From Sinomonas atrocyanea (GTDB lineage Bacteria > Actinomycetota > Actinomycetes > Actinomycetales > Micrococcaceae), in assembly GCF_030812675.1 (NCBI RefSeq), contig NZ_JAUSTE010000006.1:1-64000 (forward strand): 64,000 nucleotides of DNA, read 5' to 3'. The stretch's first letter is position 1, and each line of letters begins with the position of its first letter. Positions 6,824 through 64,000 of the stretch are shown here, piece after piece. A program made the position numbers and the translations under genes. The notes under the pieces are model-generated. The model saw only the letters and a list, made by a program, of their open reading frames with translations, did no database searches and was not told the DNA's origin.

Positions 6824-6864
6824 GCCCGGCGCGGCAGGCGCGCGGCCGGCGTCGTGCGCCGGGC
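6824..6864. terminator. hairpin between convergent genes, with repeat core
   Basis: GCCCGGCGC (6824-6832) pairs perfectly with GCGCCGGGC (6856-6864). The loop contains the repeat core CCGGCGTCGTGCGC (6846-6859), which can itself fold as CCGGCG/CGCCGG. It lies between stops at 6823 and 6866. Confidence 0.55.
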
Positions 6865-6865
6865 C

Positions 6866-9328
6866 TCACCCCGCATCGGCGAGGATGAGCTCCACGAGGG
6901 CGCCGAAGAGGCCGTCGTCCAGCCCGAGGCCCGCGAGCGCGGCCACGATCGCGGCGGGAGGGGCGCCCGAGGCGGCCCGGGCGTAGACCTCGCCCTTGAC
7001 GGCGAACTCCGCGTGCACGTCGGTCAGGAGACGCTCGACGGCGGAGACGGTCCGGTTGGGCGCGAGGCTGAAGCCGCCGGCGGCCGTGAGGGTGAGGGCC
7101 TCGGCAGCGTCGATTCCCTCGGCCGTCACGCGCAGGGCCGCGGCCTGCCCGTCGTACTCGGCCACGGCGTCCAGCTCCCGGCCGCCCGCCGCGACGCGGA
7201 CGGTGCCGGGGCGGGCGATCCCCTCGATGGCGAGCTCCCAGGCCCGTGTCCGCGGCACGCCGCCGGCGGTGCCCCGCGCCGGTCCGACCCGCAGGCTGCC
7301 GGCCTCCCAGTCGAATGCGATGGGGGTCCACACCTGGTGCTCGCGCAGCCCGGCGGTGCCGGTGCCGTCGTCCTCGATGACCTCGAACGCGCCGGAGGCG
7401 CCCGCGAAGACGCGCACGCCGACCCGTTCCGGGCAGGCGGTCCCGTTCGCCACCGCACCGGCGGCGAGCGGCAGGATCGCGCCGGCCCGGGCCAGGACCG
7501 GGATCGACTCGAGGGTGCGGAACATCCGCACCCACCGGCCGCCCCGGTAGCGGGTTCCCGTGAAGACGTCGAACCAGTCCCCCGGCGGGAGCCACGCCGT
7601 GACGCTTGCGCGGTTGAGCGCCCGGTCCCGGGGCGTGACGATCGGCGCGACCATGAGCTCGGATCCGAAGAGGAACTGGTTGGGGGCCTCGTACGCCTCG
7701 GCGGCCTCGGGGTGCTCGTAGTAGAGCGGCTCCACGAGGGGCCGTCCCTCGGCGGCGGCGCGGTGGTTCATCGTGTGGAGGTAGGGCACGAGCCGGTGCC
7801 GCAGGCGCAGGAACTCCTCCATCGCCGCCTCCGCGTCCGGCCGGAACCGCCAGGGCTCCTTCCCCGTGAACGGCATCGACGAGCTGTGCAGGCGGGTGAT
7901 CGGCGAGAAGACGCCGAGCTGGACCCACCGGGCGGCGAGGTCGTCGTCCTTGTAGCCGCCCATGTGGCCGCCGATGTCGTGGCTCCACCAGCCGTAACCG
8001 ACGTTCGAGGCGGTCGCCGTGAAGTAGGGCTGGAACGCGAGGGACTCCCACGTGACGATCGTGTCCCCGGAGAACCCGATCGGGTACCGGTGGCTGCCGG
8101 GTCCGGCGTAGCGGGAGAAGGTCAGCGGCAGGCGCCCCCCGCGCGCCGAGTCGAGGAAGTGCACGTGGTTCAGCACCCACAGCGGGTCGAGTCCGCGCAG
8201 GCGCGAGTACGGCCCTGACTGCCAGTCGAGCCACCAGAAGTCCACTCCCGCCTCCTCGAGCGGGTGGTGGACCTCGCGCAGGTAGGCGCCGAGGAACTGC
8301 GGGTCTGCCGGATCGAACGCGATCGACTCCCCGGCCGCCGGGTCGAGGCCGAGGGCCAGCGCGGTGCGCTCGTACGCCTCCTCGTGGGCCGCGATCCCGT
8401 CCGCGGGGTGGACGTTGAGGGTCAGCGCGAGGCCCCTGCCGTGCAGCCACCGGGCGAAGCCCTCCGGGTCGGGGAACAGCTCCCGGTTCCAGGTGTAGCC
8501 GGTCCAGCCCGATCCGTGCGCCGGATCGATCTCGGTGAGGTGCCAGTCCATGTCCAGGACGGCGACGGAGAGGGGGACCTCCTCCGCCGCGAAGCGCTCG
8601 ACCACGCCCCGGTACTCCTGCTCGGAGTACCGGTGGTAGCGGCTCCACCAGTTCCCGAGCGCGAAGCGGGGCACGAGCGGGGTGGGGCCGGAGATGCGGT
8701 AGAAGTCGCGCAGGCAGGCGCGGTAGTCGCGCCCGTAGCCGAAGAAGTACAGGTCCACCCGCCCGGCGGCGCTGCCGCCGTGGCCTGCTGCGGCGCCTGC
8801 ACCCGGCCGGGCGCGGGGAGCGAGCCAGCCGTCATCGTCGAAGACGAGCGTGCTGCTGTCGTCGAGGACCGAGAAGCCGTAGCGGGACATCAGGCCGGGC
8901 TCGAGCTCGCACGCGCCGTCCACCCCGTCGAGGGTGCGGGCGGTGCCGCCGAGGTTCCGCTCGCCTTCCTCGCCGTAGTGCCAGACGCTGTGGTAGTTGC
9001 TCACCCCGCCCAAGACCTTGACCGAGAGCCCGTGCGGGGCGAACGGGCCCTTGTCGTAGACGAGGTGGAGGTGCGCCGTGAGGATCTCGAGCCGGCTGTC
9101 CGAGTCGAGGACCGTGAACTCCGGCGGCTCCAGGTCCCGGTGCAGGACCGCCTGCGAGGCGCGGTCCTCGAACTCCCCGTCCGGGGAGTACTCGAGGCGC
9201 AGCAGGCGCGAGGTCAGCACCGTGATCCTGTAACGGGGGCCGCGCACGACGGCGGCGGCCCGGGGGCGCGGCGAGGTCACCGGGCGGAGGTGGTCGGGCA
9301 GGCGGACGGTCCCCGTGGTCTCGGTCAC
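6866..9328 (-). CDS. glycoside hydrolase family 31 alpha-glycosidase
   Basis: 820-residue GH31 enzyme, likely an alpha-glucosidase or alpha-xylosidase, without a signal peptide and so cytoplasmic. An N-terminal beta-sandwich is followed by the TIM barrel from about residue 215 (PRFALGNWWSRY). The nucleophile is predicted as Asp368 in DFWWLDWQSG and the acid/base as Asp422 in GFSGDTIVTW. YGWWSHDIGGHMGG is a further family signature. A Gly/Ala-rich insertion at about 172-190 interrupts a normally short loop. It lies 114 bases downstream of the antiporter, with a repeat copy between. Substrate unknown. Confidence 0.93.
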   Translation of the reverse strand: MTETTGTVRLPDHLRPVTSPRPRAAAVVRGPRYRITVLTSRLLRLEYSPDGEFEDRASQAVLHRDLEPPEFTVLDSDSRLEILTAHLHLVYDKGPFAPHGLSVKVLGGVSNYHSVWHYGEEGERNLGGTARTLDGVDGACELEPGLMSRYGFSVLDDSSTLVFDDDGWLAPRARPGAGAAAGHGGSAAGRVDLYFFGYGRDYRACLRDFYRISGPTPLVPRFALGNWWSRYHRYSEQEYRGVVERFAAEEVPLSVAVLDMDWHLTEIDPAHGSGWTGYTWNRELFPDPEGFARWLHGRGLALTLNVHPADGIAAHEEAYERTALALGLDPAAGESIAFDPADPQFLGAYLREVHHPLEEAGVDFWWLDWQSGPYSRLRGLDPLWVLNHVHFLDSARGGRLPLTFSRYAGPGSHRYPIGFSGDTIVTWESLAFQPYFTATASNVGYGWWSHDIGGHMGGYKDDDLAARWVQLGVFSPITRLHSSSMPFTGKEPWRFRPDAEAAMEEFLRLRHRLVPYLHTMNHRAAAEGRPLVEPLYYEHPEAAEAYEAPNQFLFGSELMVAPIVTPRDRALNRASVTAWLPPGDWFDVFTGTRYRGGRWVRMFRTLESIPVLARAGAILPLAAGAVANGTACPERVGVRVFAGASGAFEVIEDDGTGTAGLREHQVWTPIAFDWEAGSLRVGPARGTAGGVPRTRAWELAIEGIARPGTVRVAAGGRELDAVAEYDGQAAALRVTAEGIDAAEALTLTAAGGFSLAPNRTVSAVERLLTDVHAEFAVKGEVYARAASGAPPAAIVAALAGLGLDDGLFGALVELILADAG

Positions 9329-9416
9329 GTCATGGAGCCTACCCGCGGAGGGCAGGGCCGAACCGGGTCCTGGCTGGACCTCGGCGTGCGGCGGCCGGGG
9401 CGCGGGAGGCGGCCGG

Positions 9417-9430
9417 CCGGCGTCGTGCGC
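9417..9430. repeat. exact copy of the CCGGCGTCGTGCGY element
   Basis: The 14-base core stands between the antiporter stop (9443) and the GH31 start (9328). It is flanked by GGCCGG and CGGG, so a small CCGGCG/CGCCGG hairpin can form. Same orientation as the copies at 3615, 6846, 18747, 52079 and 58534. Confidence 0.6.
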
Positions 9431-9442
9431 CGGGAGCGTCGG

Positions 9443-11014
9443 TCAGCGGTCGAGGGTGACGGTGCGCAGGTCGAGACGCCGCAGCACACGGTCGACCAGC
9501 TCGGGGTCGTTGCCGGGCTCGTTGCGCGCCGCGAGCATCTCACGCCGGGCCGCGGCCAGGGCGTCGCGCTGGGCGCGCTCCATCGCGGCGAGCACGGCCT
9601 GGATCCGGCGCATCTTCTCGGGATCCTCTGCGTAGTCGGCCTGGAGGATCGTGTGGAGCGAGGACATGCGCCGGGCCAGGGCCCGCCGGCGCCCCTCCGG
9701 GAGCTTCTGCGCCGCCGGCGAGGTGCGCAGGGCCTCGAGCGCCACCCGCTCGGCGCGGCGCGCGAGGGCCCGCTGCGCGCGCTGCTCGGCGGCGCGGTCG
9801 TCGGGGAGGTGCAGCATGCGCATGAGCCAGGGCAGGGTCAGGCCGGGCAGCACGAGCGTGACCACGAGCACCGACGCCGCCGCCGCGACGGCGAAGTTGC
9901 GCCCCGGCGTCGGGGAGCCGTCCGCGAGCGTGGTCGGCAGGGCCAGCGCGAGCGCGAGGGTGGCCAGGCCGCGCATGCCGCACCAGGTCAGGACCACCAC
10001 CTCCCTGAGCGAGCCGGGCGTCTTCTCCCGCCGCTCGGCCCCGCCGATCCAGTACATCGCGTACATCCACACGAAGCGCACGACGATGACGGTCGCGCAG
10101 ATCCCCGCGAGCCCGGGGACGAAGGTCAGCAGGTTCGCCCCCTCGGCCTCGATGACCGAGCGCATCTCGATGCCCACGAGCCCGAACGCCACCCCCGTGG
10201 TCAGCAGTTCGAGGACGTCCCAGAAGGCCGAGCGGGTGAGCCGCTCCCCCGAATCCTGGGGCCGCGCCCGCCGTCCGAGCTCGACCGCGGTCACGACCAC
10301 CGCGACGACCCCCGAGCAGTGCACCAGCTCAGCCAGCAGGTACACGGCGTACGGCGCCACGAGGGAGGCGGCGCTGCGGGCCACGAGGTCGGGGACGAAG
10401 CGGGTGAGGGTCCCGACGACCCAGGCCACCGCGAAGCCGAGCAGGGCCGCACCGGCGGCCCCGACGAGGAACTGCGGGACCACGCTCCAGCCCACGCGGC
10501 CGTGGCTGACGGTCGCGGACACCGCGGCCTGGAAGATCACGATGGCCATTGCGTCGTTGAACAGGCCCTCGGTCTGGAGCACCGTCAGCAGCCGGCGCTG
10601 CATGCTGACCTTGCCCGCGATCGCCTCGACGGCCACGGGGTCCGGCGGGGCGACGATCGCCCCGAGCGCCAGCGCGAGCGGCAGCCCGACCGCGGGGACC
10701 AGCCACCACGTCACCGCCGCGACCGCCGCCACCGTCGCCGCGACCAGCAGCACCGCCAGGAGCACGAGTGAGCGCCAGCGCAGCCTGAACACGGACCAGG
10801 AGGACCGCTGCGCCGCCGCGAACAGCAGCGGCGGCAGGAAGAGCGGCAGGATCAGCTCGGGGTCGATGTGGACGTTCGGGACGAACGGCAGGGACGCGGC
10901 GAGCGCCGAGAACACGAGCATGAGGATCGGATAGGGCAGGCGGATCCGCTCCCCGATCCCCACGATGAGGACCGTCCCGAACAGCAGGCCGACCACCAGC
11001 AGCAGAAATTCCAT
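9443..11014 (-). CDS. Na+/H+ antiporter, CPA1 (NhaP/NHE) family
   Basis: 523-residue membrane antiporter that exchanges Na+ (or K+) for protons. It begins MEFLLLVVGLLFGTV and has about 12 membrane helices. APPDPVAVEAI and EGLFNDAMAIVIF are the family's ion-binding helices, with Asp in PDPV and in FNDA. A cytoplasmic, Arg/Ala-rich helical tail of about 130 residues follows. The ATG at 11014 has an AAGGGGG ribosome site; the ATG at 11038 has none. The GH31 gene lies downstream, but a functional link is not obvious. Confidence 0.92.
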   Translation of the reverse strand: MEFLLLVVGLLFGTVLIVGIGERIRLPYPILMLVFSALAASLPFVPNVHIDPELILPLFLPPLLFAAAQRSSWSVFRLRWRSLVLLAVLLVAATVAAVAAVTWWLVPAVGLPLALALGAIVAPPDPVAVEAIAGKVSMQRRLLTVLQTEGLFNDAMAIVIFQAAVSATVSHGRVGWSVVPQFLVGAAGAALLGFAVAWVVGTLTRFVPDLVARSAASLVAPYAVYLLAELVHCSGVVAVVVTAVELGRRARPQDSGERLTRSAFWDVLELLTTGVAFGLVGIEMRSVIEAEGANLLTFVPGLAGICATVIVVRFVWMYAMYWIGGAERREKTPGSLREVVVLTWCGMRGLATLALALALPTTLADGSPTPGRNFAVAAAASVLVVTLVLPGLTLPWLMRMLHLPDDRAAEQRAQRALARRAERVALEALRTSPAAQKLPEGRRRALARRMSSLHTILQADYAEDPEKMRRIQAVLAAMERAQRDALAAARREMLAARNEPGNDPELVDRVLRRLDLRTVTLDR

Positions 11015-11077
11015 GGGCCCCCTTCGCCTCAGGAGCATTTTTCCATGCTGGCGGTCGGCGCGGTCGGGGGCGTGCGC

Positions 11078-12055
11078 TCAGGTGAGCGGGGAGGCCGACG
11101 GCGAGGCCTCGCCGTCGTGCGTCTGCCCGCCGATGACCCACTCGAAGGCCAGGGCCCGCGACCGGGCACCCTGGGACGCCCGCGAGCGGTTCGGCTCCCC
11201 GAGGTCGACGAGGAGCGATTCGGAGATGCCGACGAGCTCGGCGAGGGTCGCGGGCGTGAACCACTCCGGGCGCGTCGCGAAGAGGATGTCCTCGCTCGAG
11301 GTGTTGCCGCTCGCTCCGGGGGCGAAGGGGCACCCGCCGAGGCCGCCCAGCGCGCCGTCGACCATGGTGGCACCGGCCTGGATCGCGGCGAGCGTGTTGG
11401 CGACGCCGAGGCCCCACGTGTCGTGCCCGTGGTAGACGATCTCGCGCTCGGGGGTCTCCTTCCCCACCCGCGCGACGAGGTCCGCGACCTGGGCGGGCAC
11501 GGCCTGGCCGAGGGTGTCGCAGATGACGATGCCCTGGGCGCCCTCGGTGCGGGGGTCGTTGGCGATGCCGAGGACGCGCTCGGGCGGGACGGGGCCCTCG
11601 AAGGGGCAGGTGAAGGAGGTCGCGATGCACAGCTCCACGGATGCTCCCGCCTCCCGGGCCAGGGCGAGCGACCGCGGCATCGCCTCGAGGCTGGCCTCCG
11701 TGGTCCGTCCGATGTTGGCCAGGTTGTGGGCATCGCTCGCCGAGAAGCAGTACTGCAGGTTCCGGGCGCCCGCCTCCAGGGCGAGCTCCACGTGCTTGGG
11801 GGTGGCCACCCAGAGCCAGCATGCGGCCAGCTCCTCGGCGGTGAGCGCGCGGACGACCTCCAGCGTGTTGGCCATCGGCGGGACCTTGTCTGGGCGGGCG
11901 AGGGAGCCGATCTCGAGTGCGGGCACGCCCAGGGCGAGCAGCCGTCGGGCGAGCGCGACCTTCCGGTCGGCGGGCAGGACCTTGCCCGTGAGCTGCAGCC
12001 CGTCGCGGAGGGTCACGTCGCGAAGCCTGGCCGCCGGGGTGAAGGAGTGGCTCAC
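11078..12055 (-). CDS. hydroxymethylglutaryl-CoA lyase family protein
   Basis: 325-residue TIM-barrel lyase that splits 3-hydroxy-3-methylglutaryl-CoA (or a close analogue) into acetyl-CoA and a keto acid. RDVTLRDGLQ carries the catalytic Arg and metal-binding Asp, YHGHDTWG the two metal-binding histidines, and GCPFAPGASGN the catalytic cysteine signature. The GTG start overlaps the CoA-transferase stop (GTGA), so the two are coupled. Last gene of the importer operon. The C-terminal tail THDGEASPSASPLT is encoded by a hairpin repeat also found at the end of the permease at 17088. Confidence 0.9.
   Translation of the reverse strand: MSHSFTPAARLRDVTLRDGLQLTGKVLPADRKVALARRLLALGVPALEIGSLARPDKVPPMANTLEVVRALTAEELAACWLWVATPKHVELALEAGARNLQYCFSASDAHNLANIGRTTEASLEAMPRSLALAREAGASVELCIATSFTCPFEGPVPPERVLGIANDPRTEGAQGIVICDTLGQAVPAQVADLVARVGKETPEREIVYHGHDTWGLGVANTLAAIQAGATMVDGALGGLGGCPFAPGASGNTSSEDILFATRPEWFTPATLAELVGISESLLVDLGEPNRSRASQGARSRALAFEWVIGGQTHDGEASPSASPLT
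11096..11117. repeat. hairpin repeat in the 3' end of the lyase gene
   Basis: CGACGGCGA / TCGCCGTCG with a GGCC loop, followed by TCGTGCGTC. Nearly identical to 17106-17127, also just before a stop codon. It may act as a transcript-end hairpin embedded in coding sequence. Confidence 0.6.
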
Positions 12056-13326
12056 GCCGTCACCCCCTGCGCTGCGCGGAGGACCGCGTGGATCTCCTCC
12101 TCGGACCGCCCCAGCAGATCGCGGCAGACTTCTTCCGTGTGCTCGCCGAGGTCGGGGCCCAGGGAGCGGACCGGGAGCGAGGCCTCTCCGAGGACCGGCA
12201 CGATCCCCGGGAAGCCCACGTCGGTGATGGTCCGCTCGCCCGTGGAGACGTCGAACTTCTGGATCATGTGCCGGGCGGCGTACTGCGGGTCGGCGCAGAT
12301 GTCCTCTGCGGTGTAGATCGGGCCGGAGGGCACCCCGGCACGGTCGAGGACGTCGAGCGCCTCCGCCGGCGGGAGGGTGGCGGTCCAGACGCCGATCGCG
12401 GCGTCGAGCTCGTCCCGCCGCTCCCAGCGGCCGGCGTTGCCGGCCAGCTCCGGGTCCGCCGCGAGGTCCGGACGGCCGATGATCTGCATGAGCCGGGCGA
12501 AGATGGAGTCCCCGTTGCCCGCGATCACGATGCTCCCGCCGCCCGCGCACACGTAGGCGTTGCTGGGGGCGATGCCCTCCATCCGGCCCCCGGTGCGGGT
12601 CCTGCGGACGCCGTAGGCCTCGTAGTCGGGGATGAGCGATTCCATCATCGAGAAGATGGCCTCGTTGAGGGCCACATCGACGACCCTCTCGGCGAGGGGC
12701 GCGCGGGCCCCCTGGGAACGCTCGCGCTGGAACAGCAGCATCATGGACCCGAAGGCGGCGTAGAGGCCCGCGATCGAGTCTCCGATGGAGATCCCCACCC
12801 GCACGGGCGGCCTGTCCGGGTCGCCCACGAGTTCGCGGAAGCCGCCCACGGCCTCGGCGACGGCGGCGAAGCCGGGGCGGTCCGACAGCGGTCCGGTCTG
12901 GCCGTAGGCGGACAGCCGGGTGATGATCAGGTCCGGGTTGGCGGCGCTGAGGACCTCGGGTCCCAGCCCCCACCGCTCGAGGGTGCCCGGGCGGAAGTTC
13001 TCGAGCAGGATGTCGCAGTGCCGCACGAGGTCGAGGACCAGGTCTCGCCCCGTCTCCGAGCGCAGGTCCAGGACCACCGACTTCTTGTTGCGGTTGATGG
13101 TCCGGTACAGCATCGAGGTGCTGCCCTCGTAGAGCCGCCAGTTGCGCAGCTCGTCCCCCGTGCCCGGACGCTCGACCTTGATGACCTCGGCACCGAAGTC
13201 GGCGAGGAGCCGGCCCGCCGTTGGCGCGGCGATGTAGTTCCCGAGTTCGAGGACGCGGATCCCGGCGAGGGGCGCGAACGCCCGGGGGGCCTCTGCCGAG
13301 CCCGTCTCAGGCCTTGACGTAGTCAT
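12052..13326 (-). CDS. family III CoA-transferase (CaiB/BaiF)
   Basis: 424-residue CoA-transferase. LAGIRVLELGNYIAAPTAGRLLADFGAEVIKVE is the family N-terminus and NRNKKSVVLDL the CoA-binding stretch. Family members usually use an Asp in a (G)YDxxxQA motif; here the equivalent segment reads PGFAAVAEAVGGF and has no Asp, as in a subgroup whose chemistry is less clear to me. It overlaps the substrate-binding protein gene by 20 bases upstream and the lyase by 4 bases downstream. Context suggests it loads CoA onto the imported acid for the lyase to cleave. Confidence 0.88.
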   Translation of the reverse strand: MTTSRPETGSAEAPRAFAPLAGIRVLELGNYIAAPTAGRLLADFGAEVIKVERPGTGDELRNWRLYEGSTSMLYRTINRNKKSVVLDLRSETGRDLVLDLVRHCDILLENFRPGTLERWGLGPEVLSAANPDLIITRLSAYGQTGPLSDRPGFAAVAEAVGGFRELVGDPDRPPVRVGISIGDSIAGLYAAFGSMMLLFQRERSQGARAPLAERVVDVALNEAIFSMMESLIPDYEAYGVRRTRTGGRMEGIAPSNAYVCAGGGSIVIAGNGDSIFARLMQIIGRPDLAADPELAGNAGRWERRDELDAAIGVWTATLPPAEALDVLDRAGVPSGPIYTAEDICADPQYAARHMIQKFDVSTGERTITDVGFPGIVPVLGEASLPVRSLGPDLGEHTEEVCRDLLGRSEEEIHAVLRAAQGVTA

Positions 13327-14425
13327 TGGTGTACGTCTTGCTCAGGTCGATGGCCTTGTCCCCGATCTCGGGGTTGGCCACGCGCTGGGTCTTGAGGACC
13401 GCCTGGGTGCCGTCCTCGGTGAACTTGCCGTCCTTGCTGAGGGTCTTCTTGAGGTCGTCGATCACCTTGGCGTACTGGACCTTGTCGCCGCCCGCGAACT
13501 TCTCGGGCATCTTGGCCGCGATCTCCTGGCCCGAGTGCTCGCTGATGTACCCGAGCGTGCGCTCGATCGCCTTGGCGAGCTTGCCCACGGTGTCCTGGTT
13601 CTTCGAGATCCAGTCCGACTTGGCGTACAGGCAGGCGGACGGCCACGACTCGGTGCCGAAGACCGCCTTGAGCCCGTCGACCGTCCGCACGTCCTGGAGG
13701 ATGACGGGCGCCTTCCCCAGCCGCTTGGCCAGGACCGAGATGTCCGGCTCGAGCATGACCGCCGCGTCGACCTGGTTGTTCTGGACCGCGGCCACCGCGC
13801 TCGAGCCGGCCCCGATCGCGGAGACGGCGGCGTCCGTGGGCTGGAAGCCGTTCTTGGAGAGGAGGTACTTGACGAACATGTCCGTCGACGACCCGGGCGC
13901 GGTCACTCCGACGTTCTTGCCCTTCAGGTCCGCGATGCCCTTGATGGAGCCCTCGTTCTTGGGCGCCACGACCAGCGCGAGGCCGGAGGAGAGGCCCATG
14001 TCGACAAAGGCCTCGATGCTCTGGTTCTTGGCCTGCATCTGGATGGTGTGCTCGTAGTAGCCGCTTGTCACCTGGGTGCTGCCGCCGATCATCGCAGTGA
14101 GGGCCTTCGAGCCGCCCTGGAGGTCCTGGAGCTCGACCTCGACGCCCTCCTCCTTGTAGTAGCCGAGCTGCTGGGCGAGGGTCGTCGGCAGGTAGGTCAG
14201 GAGGGTCTGGCCGCCGACGCCGATGATCACCTTCGCGCCGGAACCCCCGCCCGCCGCGCCGGAGGCCCCGCCGGTGCCTGCCTGCCCGGGCGGCGCCGAG
14301 GAGGGCGCGCCGCAGGCAGCGAGCGCGAGGCCGGCGGCAGTGATGCCTGCCACCGAGAGGACGCGGCGGCGGGTCCAGCCCTCGGAGACGGCCGGGTTCT
14401 GGTGCGGGTCGGGAGACGAGGTCAT
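13307..14425 (-). CDS. ABC transporter substrate-binding lipoprotein, NitT/TauT type
   Basis: 372-residue periplasmic-type binding protein (SsuA/THI5-like fold). Twin-arginine residues WTRRRVLS and the lipobox LAAC (Cys about 38) predict Tat export and lipid anchoring. After a Gly/Ala linker the domain starts KVIIGVGGQTLLTYLPTTLAQQLGYYKEEGVEVEL, typical of the family. It lies 40 bases downstream of the permease. Ligands of the family include alkanesulfonates, aromatic acids and thiamine precursors; with a CoA-transferase and HMG-CoA lyase attached, a small organic acid is the better guess. Confidence 0.92.
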   Translation of the reverse strand: MTSSPDPHQNPAVSEGWTRRRVLSVAGITAAGLALAACGAPSSAPPGQAGTGGASGAAGGGSGAKVIIGVGGQTLLTYLPTTLAQQLGYYKEEGVEVELQDLQGGSKALTAMIGGSTQVTSGYYEHTIQMQAKNQSIEAFVDMGLSSGLALVVAPKNEGSIKGIADLKGKNVGVTAPGSSTDMFVKYLLSKNGFQPTDAAVSAIGAGSSAVAAVQNNQVDAAVMLEPDISVLAKRLGKAPVILQDVRTVDGLKAVFGTESWPSACLYAKSDWISKNQDTVGKLAKAIERTLGYISEHSGQEIAAKMPEKFAGGDKVQYAKVIDDLKKTLSKDGKFTEDGTQAVLKTQRVANPEIGDKAIDLSKTYTNDYVKA

Positions 14426-55402: not shown

Positions 55403-56263
55403 CTAGGGCGCCTTCTGGGCCCAGCCCGGCGTGCCTTCGAGCACCTCGGGATGCTCCTCGGCGTAGCGGCGGAGGCCGCCCTTGCGGGGGACCTTCACCG
55501 GGTCGGGCCAGCGGGGGGACAGGTCGTCACCGAGGGTCACGCCGCGGATCTTCCGACCGATGAGGGGCACGACCCAGTCGCCGAGCCACGCCCTCTGGGC
55601 TGCGACCCACTCGCGCGGGCCGCGCCGCATCCGGGGCTCGCGCCCGCGCTGCTTCGCGCTCTGGGGGTACCCGAGCTGGTCGACCACCTGGCGGGCGAGG
55701 AACTTGTGGCCGGCCTTGGACATGTGGAGGCGATCGGTGTCCCACATCCTCCGGTCGGCATACTCGTCGAAGCACCAGTAGTCCACGAGGACGGCGCCGA
55801 GCTCGCGCGCGAGGCCCCGGACGCGCTCGTTGTACTGCCAGTTCCGGTGCTTGAGCGGCTCGAGCAGGGGGTTGACCTTCACGTCGTACCCCGTGAACAG
55901 CACCAGGGTCGCCCCGGTCGCGGCGAGCTGGCGCACGAGGTCCTCGTACTGCCCGAGCAGCTGGTCCATGTCGGTGCCGAGGTCGAGGATGTCGTTGCCG
56001 CCCGCGTAGAGGGTCACGAGCGTCGGCTCCATGGCCAGCGCCGGCGCGAGCTGGTCCGCGACGATCTGCCGCAGCCGCTTCGACCGGACAGCGAGGTTGG
56101 CGTACTCCCAGCCCTTCTCGGCCTTGGCGAGCTTCTCGGCCACCCGGTCGGCCCATCCGCGCACGCCATTGGGTAGGGCAGGGTTCCAGTCCCCCACGCC
56201 TTCGGTGAAGGAGTCGCCCAGGGCGACGAACCTCTTCCGGTTCCCGCGCACACTGCCTGCCAC
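55403..56263 (-). CDS. SGNH/GDSL-family hydrolase
   Basis: 286-residue paralogue of the hydrolase at 42742. Nucleophile block FVALGDSFTEGVGD, YAGGNDIL and TDRLHMSKAGHKFLA are all present. It is longer by about 30 residues with a basic C-terminus. No signal peptide. Preceded by a repeat-bearing gap next to the LCP gene. Esterase activity likely; substrate unknown. Confidence 0.9.
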   Translation of the reverse strand: MAGSVRGNRKRFVALGDSFTEGVGDWNPALPNGVRGWADRVAEKLAKAEKGWEYANLAVRSKRLRQIVADQLAPALAMEPTLVTLYAGGNDILDLGTDMDQLLGQYEDLVRQLAATGATLVLFTGYDVKVNPLLEPLKHRNWQYNERVRGLARELGAVLVDYWCFDEYADRRMWDTDRLHMSKAGHKFLARQVVDQLGYPQSAKQRGREPRMRRGPREWVAAQRAWLGDWVVPLIGRKIRGVTLGDDLSPRWPDPVKVPRKGGLRRYAEEHPEVLEGTPGWAQKAP

Positions 56264-56396: not shown

Positions 56397-57824
56397 TCAC
56401 TTGACGCAGGGGACCCCGCCGCCGACGAGGGCGTCGGACCAGTCGCCGGCGTTGAACGTCGAGGACGGCGACGGCGACGCGGCCGCCGGCGGAGCCTGCC
56501 CGGACGCGGGCTGCCCGGCCTGCCCCTGGGCACCAGACCCCTGCCCGGCCGGCGTCTGGCCCGTGGACGAGTCCTGTCCAGCGCCAGACCCCTGCGCGCC
56601 AGATCCCTGGGTGCCCGCGCCGTCCGAGGACCCCGCAGCCGGGGCCGCCGGCGCCGGCCGCGCGGGCTGGGCAGCGGCCGAGGACGCGGGTGCCGGCTTG
56701 GGGTTCAGCAGGTCGGCGACCTGGGCCTGGATGGCCTGCTTGTCCACGATGTTCACAGACTCGCCGGTGTCGCTCGTGCCGAACTGGACGATCGGCAGGG
56801 TCACGAACTTCGTCTTGTTCTCGGTCAGCTGCTTGGCCTTGAGGCCGAAGTCGATGAGGTTCAGGCCTTGGTCCACGGCGATCTTGTCCTTGAGGGCATC
56901 GAGGATCCCGGTGACCCTGCCGAGGTCCGTGAACGTGCCCTTCTGCTTGAGCTGGGTCGCGAGCGAGGAGATGAATGCCTGCTGGCGGCGCGAGCGGTCG
57001 AGGTCGCTCAGCGCCACCCCGGAGCCCGAGGTGTCGCGCCGCTGCCGGACGAACGCCACCGCCTGCTGGGCGTTGATCTGCTGGACGCCAGCCTTGAAGT
57101 CGGCCCCCGAGTAGGAGTCCTGCGTGGCCTCCTGGAGGCACACCGTGATGGGGGCGACCGCCTTCGCGACGGAGAGGAAGGCGGCCATGGTGACCTCGGC
57201 GAAGTGGTCGATCCTGATGTTCAGGAAGTTCTCGACGGTGGAGATCTCCGCCTTGCGGCCGGCGTCCCTGGCGGCCTGGTAGATCTCGTCCTGGCTCTTG
57301 CCGTTGGGGCTGGCGGCGAACTCGCGCATGGCCTGGTCCATCGCGTAGCCGTAGGCCTGCTTGACCTTGCCCTGCTGGATGCCGTCGGGCGAGCCCGCGA
57401 GGTCCACATAGTCGTCGCGGGGGACGGAGATGATCGTGGCCCGGCTGCCGTCCTTGGGCACGTGCAGGACCATGAGGACGTTGCTGTTGTAGCCGCCGTC
57501 GTCCGAGCTGCCCGAGTGGAGCGCGTCGTACTCCTCCTGGCTCAGTGGCTTGCCGTTCTCGTCGAGGCGCGAGTCCAGCCCCATGAGGAGGATGTTGACG
57601 TCCTGGTCCAGGCCCTTGCCGCCGGTCAGGGCGTCCGAGCGCCGGATCCCGTTCTCGAAGCCGAAGTAGGTGGCCGCCGCCCACACTCCCGCCCCGAGGA
57701 CGAGCGCGACCGCGACGACCCCGGCGAGCACGGCCGCGCGGCGGCGGCGGTAGGTCCACCGGCGGTCGTACGCGAGCGACTTCTGGTACAGGTTGCGGAA
57801 GGACGCGTCCTCGGGTCGGCGCAT
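56397..57824 (-). CDS. LytR-CpsA-Psr (LCP) family cell-wall glycopolymer ligase
   Basis: 475-residue LCP protein. A basic cytoplasmic start, one membrane helix (AVLAGVVAVALVLGAGVWAA, about 30-50) and an extracellular LCP domain. ILLMGLDSRLDENG, ATIISVPRDDYVDL (conserved Arg/Asp for pyrophosphate), KVKQAYGYAM and FAFVRQRRDTSG-like segments are family blocks. These enzymes transfer polyprenyl-phosphate-linked polymers to peptidoglycan. The C-terminal ~110 residues are Gly/Ser/Ala/Pro/Gln-rich, probably crossing the wall. It takes the place where jetD would be expected after jetC. Confidence 0.92.
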   Translation of the reverse strand: MRRPEDASFRNLYQKSLAYDRRWTYRRRRAAVLAGVVAVALVLGAGVWAAATYFGFENGIRRSDALTGGKGLDQDVNILLMGLDSRLDENGKPLSQEEYDALHSGSSDDGGYNSNVLMVLHVPKDGSRATIISVPRDDYVDLAGSPDGIQQGKVKQAYGYAMDQAMREFAASPNGKSQDEIYQAARDAGRKAEISTVENFLNIRIDHFAEVTMAAFLSVAKAVAPITVCLQEATQDSYSGADFKAGVQQINAQQAVAFVRQRRDTSGSGVALSDLDRSRRQQAFISSLATQLKQKGTFTDLGRVTGILDALKDKIAVDQGLNLIDFGLKAKQLTENKTKFVTLPIVQFGTSDTGESVNIVDKQAIQAQVADLLNPKPAPASSAAAQPARPAPAAPAAGSSDGAGTQGSGAQGSGAGQDSSTGQTPAGQGSGAQGQAGQPASGQAPPAAASPSPSSTFNAGDWSDALVGGGVPCVK

Positions 57825-57925
57825 GCGGGGTACCTCTCGGTGGACTCGGGGCGCGCCCAGCCCGGACGCGCCCCCACGCTAGCGCCGGAGCCTCAACGGC
57901 AGCTGGAAGCGCGCCGGGGCGGCAG

Positions 57926-57941
57926 CGGGCCAAGCGGCCCG
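57926..57941 (-). terminator. hairpin directly after jetC
   Basis: CGGGCC-AAGC-GGCCCG, ending on the base next to the jetC stop codon. It suggests that the jetABC transcript ends here and that no fourth gene has been read through. Six base pairs only. Confidence 0.45.
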
Positions 57942-60900
57942 TCAGCGCAGCACGATGTCCACCGGGTTCGCCTGGGAGACCGGCCCCCCGGGCACCGCCG
58001 GGCCCTCGATGAGCCCCGACCGGTTGGTGCGCTTGTCCCGGAGGATCTCCGTGACGGACCCGAGGTAGCGCGAGAGGTCGATCACGTTCTCCGGGGCCGC
58101 GAGGAGCAGCTGGAAGCCGAACTCGTGCAGGGCCGCGATGCCCTGGCCCGCGAACTCCTCGGACGCGAGCACGAACGCCTCGTCCATCATGACCGTCCCG
58201 TAGCCGGTGAACCCGTGCTCGGCGATGCCCAGCTGATAGCTCAGCGCCGCGGCCATGATGAACGCGGTGAAGCGCTGCCGCTCGCCGCCGGACATCGAGC
58301 CCGTGTCCGCGTGCACGAACACCTCGTCCCGCGCCGTGCCCGCGGCAGCGTCGCGCGAGACGCGGTGCTCCTTGCACGAGATGAACACGTGCGAGCGCGT
58401 GTCGAGCACGTCGGACCGCCACCGCCGGTCCTCGGGCGTCTGGGACGCGAGCCGCTTCACGAGCGCCTCGAGCGTCTTGTACCGAACGGTGAGCTGGTCC
58501 TCGCCGGTGCCGCTCCCGCCCGAGGTGGCGGGGCCGGCGTCGTGCGCCGCAGCGGAATTCGCGGACGACGGCGCGTGGCGCGCCCTGAGCGCGGAGACGA
58601 TCGCCTCCTTGAACTGCTTCGCGGACGCCGGGACGGTCTGGCGGATGTCCAGCTCGAGGTAGGAGCCGTCATGGAAGTCCACCCCGGCGAGGATCGAGTT
58701 CAGCGGCAGGATGCGGGCCGCGATGCCGCGGCGCTCCTCGTCGAGCAGGTGCAGCAGGGTCGAGAAGGACTCGTGCGTGCGCTGGGCGAAGAACTCCCGG
58801 AACTGCGCCTCCTGCGCGGGCAGGCCCTCCGAGACGATCTGCCGGTAGCGGGCCTCGAACGCGGCCGCGGCCCCGATCGAGACGCCGTGGTCCGCCGCGA
58901 CCACGGGGCCCCAGTCGCGCTGGAACTGCTCGAAGATGCGGGTGAGGCGCTCGGCGGCGGCCTGGGCACGGCTCTCCGCGGCGTGGACGCGGGCGGCGAG
59001 GCGGCCGTGGACCTCGGCGGCGATCCGCTCGAGGTCGTGCTGGTCCTCGGCCTGGCCGAACTCGTCGAAGAGCGGGCCGAGCGTGCTGGTCGCCGCGGCC
59101 GACGGCGGGGCGTCGGCGAGGCGGGTCCGCGCGGCCTCGAGGAGGCGGTCGGCGGTCACGAGCTGGGCATCGAGCTGGCGGTACTCGCTCTGGAGCACCG
59201 CGGCGGCCTCGGTGGAGGCCTGGTGCTCGGCGCGGGCCGCCTCGACCTTGGCGCGCAGCGGCTCGAGGTCGCCCTGGGCCGCGAGCGCGTCCTCGAGGCG
59301 GGTGCCGATGCGGCGCAGCTCCTCCTCTGCCGCCGCGGAGGAGACCTCCTCCCACGCCCGCTCGTCCCGGGCCACGCGCCGCAGCGCCTCGAGCCGGCGG
59401 GAGAGCCCCTGGTGGGAGTCCTCGCTGGCCTGGGCGGCCTCGGCCGCGGCGGCGAGGGAGGCCTCGAGCTCGAGGACCCGGGCGGCGAGGAGCTCGACCT
59501 TGGCCGCGTTGTCGAAGCCGAGGACGAAGTCGGCGCGGGCCGCGAAGCGGTCGTCCTTCTCGACGGTGCCGCGGCCGCGCTTGACCACGCCGCCGAGGCT
59601 CAGTCCGCGCTCGAGGCCGGCGAGCTCGTCGGGATCCTCGACGCACGTGTAGGCGAAGTCCACCGCGATGCGCTCGCGGAGGTAGTCGCCGGCCGGGCCT
59701 TCGACGACCTCCAGCTTGGAGAGCAGGTCCCGCTCCCCCGCGGAGGCCAGGGCGGCCTCGGCGCCGGGGACGCGGCTGGAGAGGTCGACGGCGCGCAGCG
59801 CCCCGCGCACCGGGTTCGCGTCGAGCCACCGGGTCACCGCCGCGAAATGCTCCCCGGGGACGAGCAGGGTCGTGGCCAGCGAGCGCAGGGCCCGCTCGGC
59901 GGCCGGGCGCCACCGCTCCTCGTCCTCGGCGAGGTCGGTCAGCTCCCCGCCGAACGGCATCTCGTCCTCGTCGAGGCCGAGGGCCGCGGCGATCGCGGCG
60001 CGGTTCTCGACCGCGTGCTGGGGCAGGAGGCTCTTGCTCTGCGCGAGGGCCGAGAGCTCCGAACGGGCCTCGGCGAGCTCTCGCTTGGCGGTCGCGTGGG
60101 CCTCGAACGCGTCGAAGCGGGCCTCCCGCAGCGCCGCCGTGTCCCCCTCGAGCCCGGCGAGGGCCTCGGCGGCCCGGCGGTGCGCAGCCTCCCAGCCCTC
60201 GGCCGAGAACGGGAGGTCGAGGCCGGCGTCGTGCAGGCCCTCCTTCGCGGCCGCCTCGACCTCGCGGCGGAGGCGCAGGCCGACCGTCGCGTTGTCCCGG
60301 GCCTGCTCGAGGGCGGAGATCTGGTTGCCGCCGGCGCTGTTGTACTCGGCTTCGAGGGAGCGCAGCTCGGCGGCCAGGGCGTCGCGGCGGTGGCGCTCGG
60401 CGGAGAGCTCCTTCGCCTTGGCCTGGGCTCGGTCCCGGATGCCGACGATGAGCCGCTCCTGGACGGTGACGGCGTGCGACTGGCGGACGGCGTCGAAGGG
60501 CTCGTCGGCGAGCTCGCGCAGGCGTGCCGCCTCGGTCAGGGCGGCCTCGTACTCCTGATTCAGGCCGGGGACCGGGGCGAGCTGGTCGCGCTGGAGCCTG
60601 ATGTCCTCGAGCCGGGCCCGGATGGACATGAGGTTGCTGAACTCCTCGACCACCTCGTCGGCGGCCGCGAGCGTGGCCGGCGGGTCGAGGACCTGGTCCC
60701 GGAAGAAGCTGTTGACGCTGCCGCCGAGGCCCTTGCCTGCCTGGATCACGCGCAGGAGCGGGAGCGCCTGGTCGCTCGAGATGCCCAGGAGCCGGCGGAA
60801 GCGCTCGGCGAAGTTCTTGTGGACGTCGAAGACCTGCGCCTCGGGGAAGACGGCCTCGAGCCCGCTGCGGGTGAAGCGCCGGCCCTGGGCCTGGCCGATG

Positions 60901-61400
60901 ATCCCCTCGACCGCGGCCACGTCCAGCGGCACCGAGTCGATGAGGTAGAAGCGGCCGAGGCTGGACTCCGTGCCGTTCTTGGGCAGGTCGAACAGCGCCG
61001 TGAGCGTGTAGGAGGTGCCGGCCGCGTTGTCGAACGTGAGGGCGACGGCGCTCCAGGTGGCCCCCGGGCGCTGGAATGCGCTCGCACGGCCCTCCCCCAC
61101 GGCCACGTCGCCGACCTTGCCCCGCATGTAGGTGTAGGTGGTGCGGCGGTCCTCGCTGTGCCCGGCGCGGGCCGCTGCGGCCTCATTGGAGCGCGGGCGG
61201 GCGTCGAACACGCGGGCGATCGCATCGAACAGCGTCGACTTGCCCACCCCCGAGTTGCCCGTGAGCATGGTGCCGGCCCGGTCCACGTGCATGGTGTGCG
61301 CCCCATGGAAGGTGCCCCAGTTGACGACCTGGACGAGGCTGAGCCGGTACTGTCCGGGGTTGATGTCCGTCCCGAGCGGGAGCATGGTCGCGACGCTCAC
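57942..61400 (-). CDS. jetC: SMC-like ATPase JetC (MksB-type) of a Wadjet system
   Basis: 1152-residue SMC/MukB-type protein. The N-terminal head has Walker [10 protein letters not shown] (48-56) after [17 protein letters not shown]; long coiled coils (about 250-460 and 660-830) flank a hinge region; the C-terminal head has the signature [10 protein letters not shown] (about 1035) and Walker B VMMDEAF (about 1070). Such proteins extrude plasmid DNA loops in Wadjet defence. GTG start overlaps the jetB stop. Two repeat copies code for loops at about 389-393 (LHDAGL) and 941-968 ([12 protein letters not shown]...), the latter just before the C-terminal head. Confidence 0.93.
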
Positions 61401-62263
61401 AGGAGCCCCTCCGTCTCGCCGGAATCGCCGAGGTCACCCTGTGGGTCCCCAAGGTCAGGGTTTCCGACCTCTTCCAGAGGATCGGCCTCGTCGGGGCTGT
61501 GCGCGCCCTCGGCCTCGTCTGGCCCGTCCCCGCCTCCTCCGGCGAGGTCCACGCCCAAGGCGACCTGGCCGGCGTCGTCCGCGGCACCTCCATCCCGCGA
61601 GGGCCCCGCCGCGGCGACGGCCTCGAGGTGCCGGGTGACGTCGCCGATGTTCTCGAACGGCAGGGCGAGCGGCAGCGCGTTGGAGATGAGGTACACGTCC
61701 TCGAGCGGGGTGGGGATGAGGAGGCGGCGGGCCTGGAGCTTGGCGACCGCGCGGTGGACGGTATCGGCGTCACGGAGCGCGTCCTGCTCCTCGGCCGGCT
61801 GGTAGTGGGCCACGACGTCGGCGAGCTCCTCGAGCGTGACGGTCGGCTCCGTCTGGGCCGTGGCATGCCGGTCCAGGAGCAGCCGGAGCCGCAGGAGGAG
61901 GATGGTCTCGACCCTGCTGAGCGCGCGCTGCTGGCGCAGGACCGTGGCGCGCGAGGCCGTGCCCAGCAGCTCCGGGTCCACCGGCCGCAGCACGGCGACC
62001 TTGCGCTCGTGGTCGATGTGGAGACGGAGGAAGAGCTCGGACAGCCGCGAGCGCAGCACGTCCTCGTGGTCCAGCAGCGTGGTCCACGCCTTCTCGTCCC
62101 GGCCGCCGTCGAGGTACGGGCCCTTCAGGAGGCGGACCAGGACGTGGCGGACCCGCAGCGGGAGGACGCCGGTGTCGCCGTCGTACAGGGCCGTGCCGGG
62201 CACGAACGGCTCCTCCGGGGCGACCTCGGAGTCCAAGGGGGCGACCTCGGCAGCAGTTTCCAT
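61397..62263 (-). CDS. jetB: Wadjet subunit JetB (MksE-like, DUF4194)
   Basis: 288-residue MksE/kite-like subunit that binds JetA and JetC. The core, about 30-210, shows [23 protein letters not shown] and later [30 protein letters not shown], a winged-helix pattern of DUF4194. The last ~70 residues are an acidic Gly/Asp/Glu-rich tail, longer than I expect for the family (about 200-220). ATG 62263 overlaps the jetA stop by one base (TGATG); an ORF extension to 62407 is not protein-like. Confidence 0.9.
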
Positions 62264-63876
62264 CAGTTCTCCTCCCGGGAGGTCGCAGGGGCCATGGTGC
62301 TCCGGACGCCTGCCGGCGCCCCCGCCGGTCCCACGGTCACCGTCGTGTTGGGGACGAAGGCGGTGCGCCGCGTCCCGTCGACCTGTTCGAATTCCAGCGG
62401 CGCCCACGCGTCCCGGCCGAAGCCCACGCCCCGGTTGAGCAGGTGCCCGAGGAGCGCGCGGATCGAGTTGATGTGCTGCTCATCGGCGGGCAGCTGGGCC
62501 CAGATATCGGGCAGCTCGGCGCGGCCGCCACCTGCCTCGAGGGCCACATCCACGGCTTCCCGCAGCGCCGCGGCCTTGGCCTTCCCCGTGCGGGCGGAGC
62601 GGACGCGGTCCTCCCGGCCGAAGGAGATGGGGTCGGCGAGCCGGGGCGGCGGCGCGAGTTCGTCCGGGTCGAAGAGCTTGACCATGGACAGGGACTCGAA
62701 CTCTGCGCCGAACAGCTCGGGGGCCGGCGCGAACCCCGACTCCTCGCGGACGTACGGGAGGTGGCGGACGGCCTGCTCCGCCCGCCGGATCGCGTCGCGG
62801 AGCCGGACGGACTGGCGGTAGTCGTCGCTCTGGACATAGGTGTTCAGGCTCTCCGAGAGCTTGCCGTAGATGCGCTGGATCTGGGCGTTGGCCTCGCGCA
62901 GCTCCGCTACGAGGTGCCGGAGGGTCTCGCGCTCCTCGTGCCCGAGGCCGTCGGCGAAGTCCCGGGAGAGGACCTCGGAGATGGCGCCCCGGAAGCGCAT
63001 CTGCTGCTCGGGGTCATCCAGGAACGCCGTGAACGAGCGGAAGGTGCGGCCCTCGCTGGAGGCGCGCAGCCGGCGGTCCGCCTCGAGGACCTGGGCCATC
63101 GTGGCGCCCTTCGTCAGCGACTCCTCGATGATCTGGTTGCGCAGCTGGCCCACCGAGTCCTCGATGCGGTCCCGCATGCGCTTGAAGTCGGCCGGGACGC
63201 CGGCGGCAAGGTCGAGGATGTTCTCGGCGGCCTCGAGGGCCGTCTCGTCGTCGAGGCTCCCGGTCTGCTCCCCGGCGCGCATGGCCCGCACGAGCTCGAG
63301 CCGCTCCTCGATCTCGGCCTCGAGGGCCTCGATCCTCGCGGTCGTGTCCGGGTTGGTCTCGCGCGCGAGCCTCTCCACGTCGCCGAGGAGTGTGCCGAGG
63401 CGCGATCCGGTCAGCGTGGACCGCTCGGAGGAGAGCGAGTCGAGGAACGCGAGCACGCGCGCCGTCGCCTCGGTGAGCTCGTACACGATCCGGCCGCCGT
63501 GCGCGCGGCGGGCGAGGAACCGGCGGCGGGTCCAGTCGTCGGCCACGGCGCGGCCGGTCGCGGCGCCGGCGGTGGGCGCGGCCCCGGAGGCGGCGTCGTG
63601 GGCGCGGAGGTCCTCGAGGAAGGCGTCGAGCTCCTCGTGGAACTGTTCGAGCTCCACCTGCGGGCGGTTGCGCGAGAACGCGGTCTGCAGCGCGGCGATG
63701 GTCCACGGGGCCGAGCGGGTGAGCGCCCACGCCGGCCCGCGGTGGAGCGACTCGAGCTCGGCGAGGCGGACCAGCATGGCGGACGACGGCGACCCCGCCG
63801 GCGCGGGTCCCTCGCCGCGCGCCGGGGTACGTGCAAGCGAGGGGGCCGGCAGCGGTCGCGGAGAGGGTTCTGGCAC
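62263..63876 (-). CDS. jetA: Wadjet subunit JetA (MksF-like kleisin, DUF3375)
   Basis: 537-residue kleisin-like subunit of the SMC complex. After about 33 Pro/Ala/Arg-rich residues the DUF3375 domain starts [21 protein letters not shown]; later [23 protein letters not shown] is a winged helix and long helices with [23 protein letters not shown] follow. GTG 63876 stands eight bases after a TAGAGT -10, so the mRNA is probably leaderless; ATG 63777 would start right at the conserved domain but has no ribosome site. A degenerate repeat codes RAHDAASG near residue 92. First gene of jetA-jetB-jetC. Confidence 0.92.
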
Positions 63877-63890: not shown

Positions 63891-64000
63891 CCGGGCGTCC
63901 ACCGGGCGTCCACCGGCACGGCAGGAACCCGTCCGGCCGTTCCCCCGTTGGAACACGAGAGAGACTGCTCGGACCGTGGGGATACAGAACTGTCGGCGCC

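Follow-up and report, generated by a model that had tools for sequence, protein, structure and literature searches.

What does a Wadjet-type operon do when the nuclease gene jetD is missing from it? The question is raised by a jetA-jetB-jetC operon near the right end of a 64-kb window of Sinomonas atrocyanea DNA; the window, the whole stretch analyzed here, comprises the initial 64 kb of contig C6, in a 4.12-Mb genome of 32 contigs. We call a JetABC operon without jetD orphan, or unarmed, and a jetABCD operon canonical, or armed. The original prediction offered three explanations: jetD is elsewhere, possibly to the right of position 64000; another nuclease serves; or the complex works without cutting, as a condensin. 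Judged by sequence comparisons, the last appears to be the best supported of the three. With a probability of about 0.6, the orphan operon encodes a nuclease-free JetABC (MksFEB) complex of the structural maintenance of chromosomes (SMC) type, a housekeeping paralog of Wadjet in a Micrococcaceae lineage, most likely at work on the chromosome.

The operon is transcribed leftward, with all three genes on the minus strand. The genes and the ATPase motifs read from the sequence are as follows.

62263-63876, minus strand: jetA, MksF-like kleisin (DUF3375), probably starting at ATG 63777
61397-62263, minus strand: jetB, MksE-like KITE subunit, DUF4194; ATG 62263 preceded by GGAGGA
57942-61400, minus strand: jetC, MksB-like SMC ATPase of 1152 amino acids
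61233-61259, minus strand: Walker A of JetC, GNSGVGKST
58272-58292, minus strand: ABC signature of JetC, SGGERQR
58173-58193, minus strand: Walker B of JetC with the catalytic glutamate, VMMDEAF

JetA matched Pfam DUF3375 (2.7e-89) and the PADLOC model JetA1 (750.6 bits), and JetC matched Pfam AAA_29 and SbcC_Walker_B together with JetC1 (1108.9 bits). For JetB, both searches used a longer 336-amino-acid frame and matched Pfam DUF4194 (1e-28) and JetB1 (422 bits). Thus, the three intact genes claimed in the original prediction indeed belong to the Jet/Mks (Wadjet) group: a DUF3375 kleisin, a DUF4194 KITE protein, and an SMC-type ATPase form its core, in the order A-B-C, within one operon. The predicted overlaps of one to four bases are the junctions TGATG (jetA/jetB, one base) and GTGA (jetB/jetC, four bases), and the Walker A, signature, and Walker B motifs attributed to JetC were all found. 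Because the PADLOC profile match starts at residue 30 of JetA and the first internal methionine is residue 34, translation probably starts at ATG 63777 rather than at GTG 63876. The N-terminal part of JetA (about residues 45-334) matches the solved JetA chains 8dk1, 9qxt, and 8as8, and JetC matches the solved JetC chains 8as8, 9qxt, and 8dk2 over nearly its full length (residues ~18-1111); JetB matched no solved chain. The closest named relatives are from Sinomonas (Micrococcaceae), JetA being 97% identical to that of S. atrocyanea.

In type I Wadjet, jetD directly follows jetC. The JetD profile found no such gene at the window locus, in agreement with the original prediction. Since the operon runs leftward, a downstream jetD would be expected to the left of 57942, not to the right of 64000. 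A search of positions 56001-76000 of contig C6, including 12 kb to the right of the window, detected no JetD, and a jetD beyond the right edge was rejected. The prediction had named two findings that would speak against it, a jetD just past the edge and a placement of the genes outside the Jet/Mks families; neither was obtained. The suggestion that jetD is elsewhere holds in another sense. The genome-wide search proposed with it yielded one JetD_C and one DUF3322 match, both in a single gene on contig C7, which ends a complete jetA-jetB-jetC-jetD operon, that is, a canonical type I Wadjet (locus L006, positions 6562-13355). Hence the host carries both types, an armed operon and an unarmed one, on separate contigs, and the complete one provides a natural control for the other. 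The two are distant: the best tblastn segment between the window JetC and the C7 operon is ~27% identical.

The absence of jetD is shared by related operons. A JetA scan of genome contigs yielded 166 relatives, of which the best 80 were analyzed, all from Sinomonas, Arthrobacter, Pseudarthrobacter, or Paenarthrobacter. The synteny comparison suggested by the original prediction gave a uniform result: all 80 have jetA, jetB, and jetC, and none has JetD beside the operon by tblastn or an iterated JetD profile, three of them (L032, L075, and L079) having only 0.6-1.1 kb of sequence after jetC. The profile was run on 142 loci, comprising 27 chosen as armed and 115 others, namely the 80 relatives, the window, and 34 loci selected for the lack of a JetD_C match in their vicinity (14 from Micrococcaceae and 20 from the class). 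All 27 armed loci were positive, with a best match per locus of at least 248 bits and JetD adjoining its own jetC in each, and all 115 others were negative. In open frames of at least 60 codons, no JetD remnant was found beside any of the 115.

The orphan genes themselves are under purifying selection, with pairwise ratios of nonsynonymous to synonymous substitution rates (dN/dS) of 0.04-0.32 for the three genes within Sinomonas. The jetC gene is intact by length in 78 of the 80 related loci, being split in L029 and broken in L081. Walker A is present in 79, the exception being the split gene of L029, and the Walker B sequence TVMMDEAF in 78, the exceptions being L027 and the broken L081. Two JetD-less JetABC operons, L238 (NZ_AP024648.1) and L239 (NZ_CP012477.1), are on Arthrobacter replicons filed as plasmids, of 1.35 and 0.75 Mb, respectively. 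Their JetC proteins are 68% and 40% identical to that of the window, and a RecB-family nuclease/helicase gene lies immediately upstream of the operon in L239.

The distribution of the two operon types was compared in an even sample of 100 Micrococcaceae genomes out of a larger group, and both JetA and JetD_C were sought in this sample. At 24 of 66 JetA loci (409-493 bits), a JetD was found at a distance of 5.2-6.3 kb; the remaining 42 (257-364 bits) have none nearby; in three genomes (G052, G076, and G087) JetA is too close to a contig end to see beyond jetC. The 42 orphan loci occur one per genome. By genus, the orphan is present in 42 of 43 genomes from 12 genera and in none of 57 genomes from the other 20; only one genus is mixed, compared to 20.8 in shuffles (0 of 2000 shuffles gave so few). 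The armed operon occurs in 23 genomes from 16 genera, with 14 mixed genera versus 15.6 in shuffles. Thus, the orphan is fixed by genus and conserved like a core gene, whereas canonical Wadjet is patchy.

A tree of concatenated JetA and JetC for 72 loci of the window's class included the window and 12 of the 80 relatives; L081, L168, and L169 were left out. It is a quick search (LG+G4, midpoint root, no bootstrap), with long branches meeting where the main clades join and 12 rows flagged for odd composition. The 26 orphan rows from Micrococcaceae group together in a single clade (SH-aLRT 100) that spans many genera. Orphan operons of other families are placed elsewhere, and one clade mixes armed and unarmed operons. 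The armed/unarmed label changes five times on the tree, the direction being open given the midpoint root. Close relatives with and without JetD occur within one genus, g78 (L166 and L141, L142, L143), a pattern that by its sequences reads as a recent loss or gain of JetD. On a tree of RpoB and RpoC from 39 genomes, the orphan requires seven changes (shuffled mean 13.2) and the canonical operon 14, and the distances of orphan JetA and JetC correlate with those of RpoBC (r 0.72, 14 genomes, none of 5000 permutations as high).

Beyond the family, 197 genomes of the class were surveyed: JetD is missing from the vicinity of 23 of 41 JetA loci, and JetD_C was not matched anywhere in 17 of the 23 genomes concerned. 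The 41 loci remained after four rows below the cut-off and two second halves of split JetA matches were dropped; the count is a lower bound, only seven JetA candidates having been scored in many genomes, and in G158 a split JetA near the contig start leaves the absence of JetD unproven. The mirror image of a jetD-less JetABC was seen in G015 (contigs C64 and C115): JetA was not matched in this genome, which has an orphan jetD (DUF3322 and JetD_C) and, separately, a match to DUF2399. We tentatively propose, at nearly even odds, that JetD was lost, and Wadjet thereby disarmed, independently in several actinobacterial lineages, and that in Micrococcaceae one such copy turned into an SMC complex fixed by genus, which exists in addition to Smc-ScpAB and in some genomes shares cells with a still-armed paralog. 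Repeated loss of JetD would be compatible with the tree, but the tree does not settle which way the changes went.

Selection, intact ATPase motifs, retention by genus, and the absence of JetD all fit a non-cutting SMC complex. By the model of solved Wadjet and MukBEF, JetC would use ATP to extrude DNA loops, JetA serving as the kleisin and JetB as the KITE subunit. The step missing from this scheme would be the activation of JetD by JetABC on a small circle. Most likely, the orphan complex would act on the host chromosome, in compaction, segregation, or replication-linked organization, and the separate jetABCD operon would supply plasmid defense. Loop extrusion, the chromosome as substrate, and the housekeeping role are what we infer for the complex; by analogy with Pseudomonas aeruginosa MksBEF and with MukBEF, chromosome work beside Smc-ScpAB appears to be the likeliest role.

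Several observations weigh against this reading. The operon is not indispensable: one genome of the window's own genus (G037) is without it, jetC is damaged in L029 and L081, and in L027, a metagenome-assembled Arthrobacter, JetC has MMDDAF in place of MMDEAF, aspartate replacing the Walker B glutamate. The operons of L238 and L239 are on replicons filed as plasmids. MksBEFG of Corynebacterium glutamicum reportedly acts solely on DNA outside the chromosome (PMC7083940). The host and 12 other orphan genomes carry both systems, and cross-talk with JetD is possible there. Coexistence with Smc-ScpAB is judged from ScpA, the component searched for, which was found in 96 of the 100 genomes, including all 42 with the orphan (the four lacking it carry no orphan). 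One of the 12 genera, g10, has its sampled locus L117 in the mixed clade, and therefore the count of 42 of 43 spans two lineages. Finally, the canonical loci also track RpoBC (r 0.51, 13 genomes, 7 of 5000 permutations), as does an armed clade of seven rows (r 0.72, 47 of 5000), and the ParA and ScpB markers give a weak contrast, 0.43 for the orphan versus 0.36 for the canonical operon; this marker test of vertical inheritance was set aside as too weak. Vertical inheritance thus rests mainly on the genus pattern.

Another scenario, which we consider unlikely, is that the orphan still fights foreign DNA, either trapping or silencing plasmid or phage DNA or passing it to an unrelated nuclease encoded elsewhere. 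The relatives of the complex are anti-plasmid systems, Smc5/6 is described as silencing some viral genomes without cutting (PMC7617805), and the Arthrobacter operons on large plasmid-like replicons, one with the RecB-family gene just upstream, would suit such a function. However, the orphan is genus-fixed rather than patchy, and its surroundings offer no recognizable nuclease. In 10 of 15 Micrococcaceae orphan loci, the first downstream genes belong to eight non-nuclease families (epimerase, multicopper oxidase, sigma factor, RlmN-like, DUF6176, CrcB, EamA, and cation efflux) or, in two cases, have no family assignment. None of the 10 genes scanned among the 12 neighbors of the window operon matched a PADLOC model. 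The predicted option of another nuclease thus found no candidate among the neighbors scanned, the genome-wide search having covered the JetD families only.

Neighboring genes were also compared by clustering their families in 81 loci (the 80 relatives and the window, the layouts of L008 and L081 excepted) and in 62 loci. Downstream of the window jetC are the following.

57825-57941, minus strand: 117-bp spacer between jetC and the LCP gene, the place expected for jetD
56397-57824, minus strand: LCP (LytR-CpsA-Psr) gene, Pfam PF03816, the next gene downstream, a neighbor outside the complex

The original prediction placed a small hairpin and then an LCP gene after jetC. The LCP gene is there. 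The hairpin did not stand: the spacer contains a GC-rich inverted repeat (57848-57874) with no terminator-like T-run, it folds no better than shuffled sequences (z -0.06), and the repeat was rejected as a terminator or element. By tblastn, an LCP gene is near the operon in six of the 80 related loci, all from Sinomonas, and in none of the Arthrobacter group. In that group, the downstream genes are varied, a diverging acyl-CoA-dehydrogenase-like gene (named from sequence) precedes the operon in 67 loci, and two small families neighbor it in 47 and 44 loci; none of these three families occurs in Sinomonas, whose surroundings differ from those of the Arthrobacter group. A GDSL/SGNH-hydrolase-like gene, also named from sequence and found at 55403-56263 in the window, is downstream in 20 loci, eight of them from Sinomonas, and is taken for an old neighbor of the operon. 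Neither clustering contains a family found with the operon in every group. The idea of a replacement partner next to the operon was therefore rejected, the shared neighbors having no nuclease look and none being common to all groups. Upstream of the window jetA, in contig C6 to the right of the window (L005, 9888-15930), are genes of the tellurite/stress type, three for TerD and one for TelA; Sinomonas loci and Arthrobacter cavernae (L083) have the same families upstream.

The orphan could also be half of a split Wadjet, with JetABC using the JetD of the canonical operon encoded elsewhere in the genome. We regard this as quite improbable. A full JetD match is indeed present in 13 of the 42 orphan genomes (the host and 12 of the other 41), and the canonical operon is slightly more common in genomes with the orphan than in the rest (13 of 42 versus 10 of 58; Fisher p 0.15). 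However, one further orphan genome has only a JetD remnant with two in-frame stops, and the remaining 28 have no JetD_C match; thus, JetD in trans is not a general answer. With JetD_C, DUF3322, and DUF2399 taken together, 25 of the 42 still lack any match, and the other three of the 28 (G020, G072, and G092, from one genus) have only DUF3322 matches of 20-22 bits. In that genus, g20, all four sampled genomes (G048 being the fourth) have such a DUF3322-only match, in a frame of 139-215 amino acids without JetD_C. Moreover, the Micrococcaceae orphan clade is separate on the tree from the armed operons of the same genomes, and every JetD of the 27 armed loci adjoins a jetC of its own.

A decaying Wadjet remnant that lost its effector, as the absence of jetD, the two damaged jetC genes in 80 loci, and the one altered Walker B residue might suggest, is hardly credible and is already contradicted for the orphan clade by the 78 operons of intact length, the low dN/dS values, the spread of a single clade across many genera, and the lack of JetD traces in open frames of at least 60 codons at the 115 loci.

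A stretch resembling LF/LY/LW-x-GD-x-G near the N-terminus of JetB was considered as a sign of JetD docking. Many JetD-less rows have it, and so do some armed ones, but the largest armed clade lacks it; it does not separate armed from unarmed operons and was rejected. In a review, JetB is said to contact JetD through an IFDR motif (PMC10586767, available part); the stretch could not be equated with it, JetB having matched no solved chain.

Among known systems, type I Wadjet, or MksBEFG (JetABCD; C. glutamicum, Mycobacterium smegmatis, P. aeruginosa PA14, and Escherichia coli GF4-3), has the same three subunits in the same gene order, and the orphan fits its PADLOC models and its solved JetC, nearly full length, and JetA, in the N-terminal part. 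The orphan differs in having no adjoining jetD and in being genus-fixed, whereas type I Wadjet is patchy in Micrococcaceae. Another parallel is P. aeruginosa MksBEF, a Wadjet-group complex said, in the portions available, to lack JetD and to coexist with SMC-ScpAB (PMC10586767, PMC7485682). That complex is chromosome-organizing, and the Sinomonas complex, known from its genes, is likened to it by gene content. MukBEF of E. coli and several other members of the group are also described as having no MksG/JetD (PMC7617805, in part), and the window operon, a Wadjet-group complex with no MksG/JetD in its operon, agrees with them in this respect. However, MukBEF has apparently replaced Smc-ScpAB, according to the available part of the review (PMC10586767), whereas ScpA is present in all 42 orphan Micrococcaceae genomes. 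Paenarthrobacter lasiusi S21 has a JetABC-only locus and a separate JetA1-B1-C1-D1 locus (PMC11719660, Table 6); there the JetABC locus is filed as a defense system, and the likeness is drawn from the table, not from sequence. Thus, JetD-less Wadjet-group complexes are already in print (PMC10586767 and PMC7617805, as far as available). In titles and abstract openings we found no description devoted to the Micrococcaceae lineage; it may be among the operons listed in PMC7617805.

The results have a consequence for annotation. In the 100 Micrococcaceae genomes, 52 have JetA and only 23 have JetA with a nearby JetD, and counting JetABC as "Wadjet" therefore more than doubles the apparent number of genomes with plasmid defense. 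The JetABC locus of P. lasiusi was recorded as Wadjet in that way (PMC11719660, available part). At least one Wadjet system has been reported in 42% of Actinobacteria versus 7% of others (PMC10482375), a requirement for JetD not being evident in the available part of that report.

The wider meaning concerns the origin of chromosome organizers. According to the accessible part of a review, the chromosome-organizing MukBEF and MksBEF are proposed to have arisen from a defense system, MksBEF by loss of JetD, the relationship being called unresolved there (PMC10586767). The presence of armed and disarmed versions in one soil-type bacterium makes the idea of a path from defense to chromosome organization testable by swapping JetD or subunits. 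If the proposed reading is true, cells with both operons would be a natural experiment in which a plasmid-cutting loop extruder becomes a chromosome organizer.

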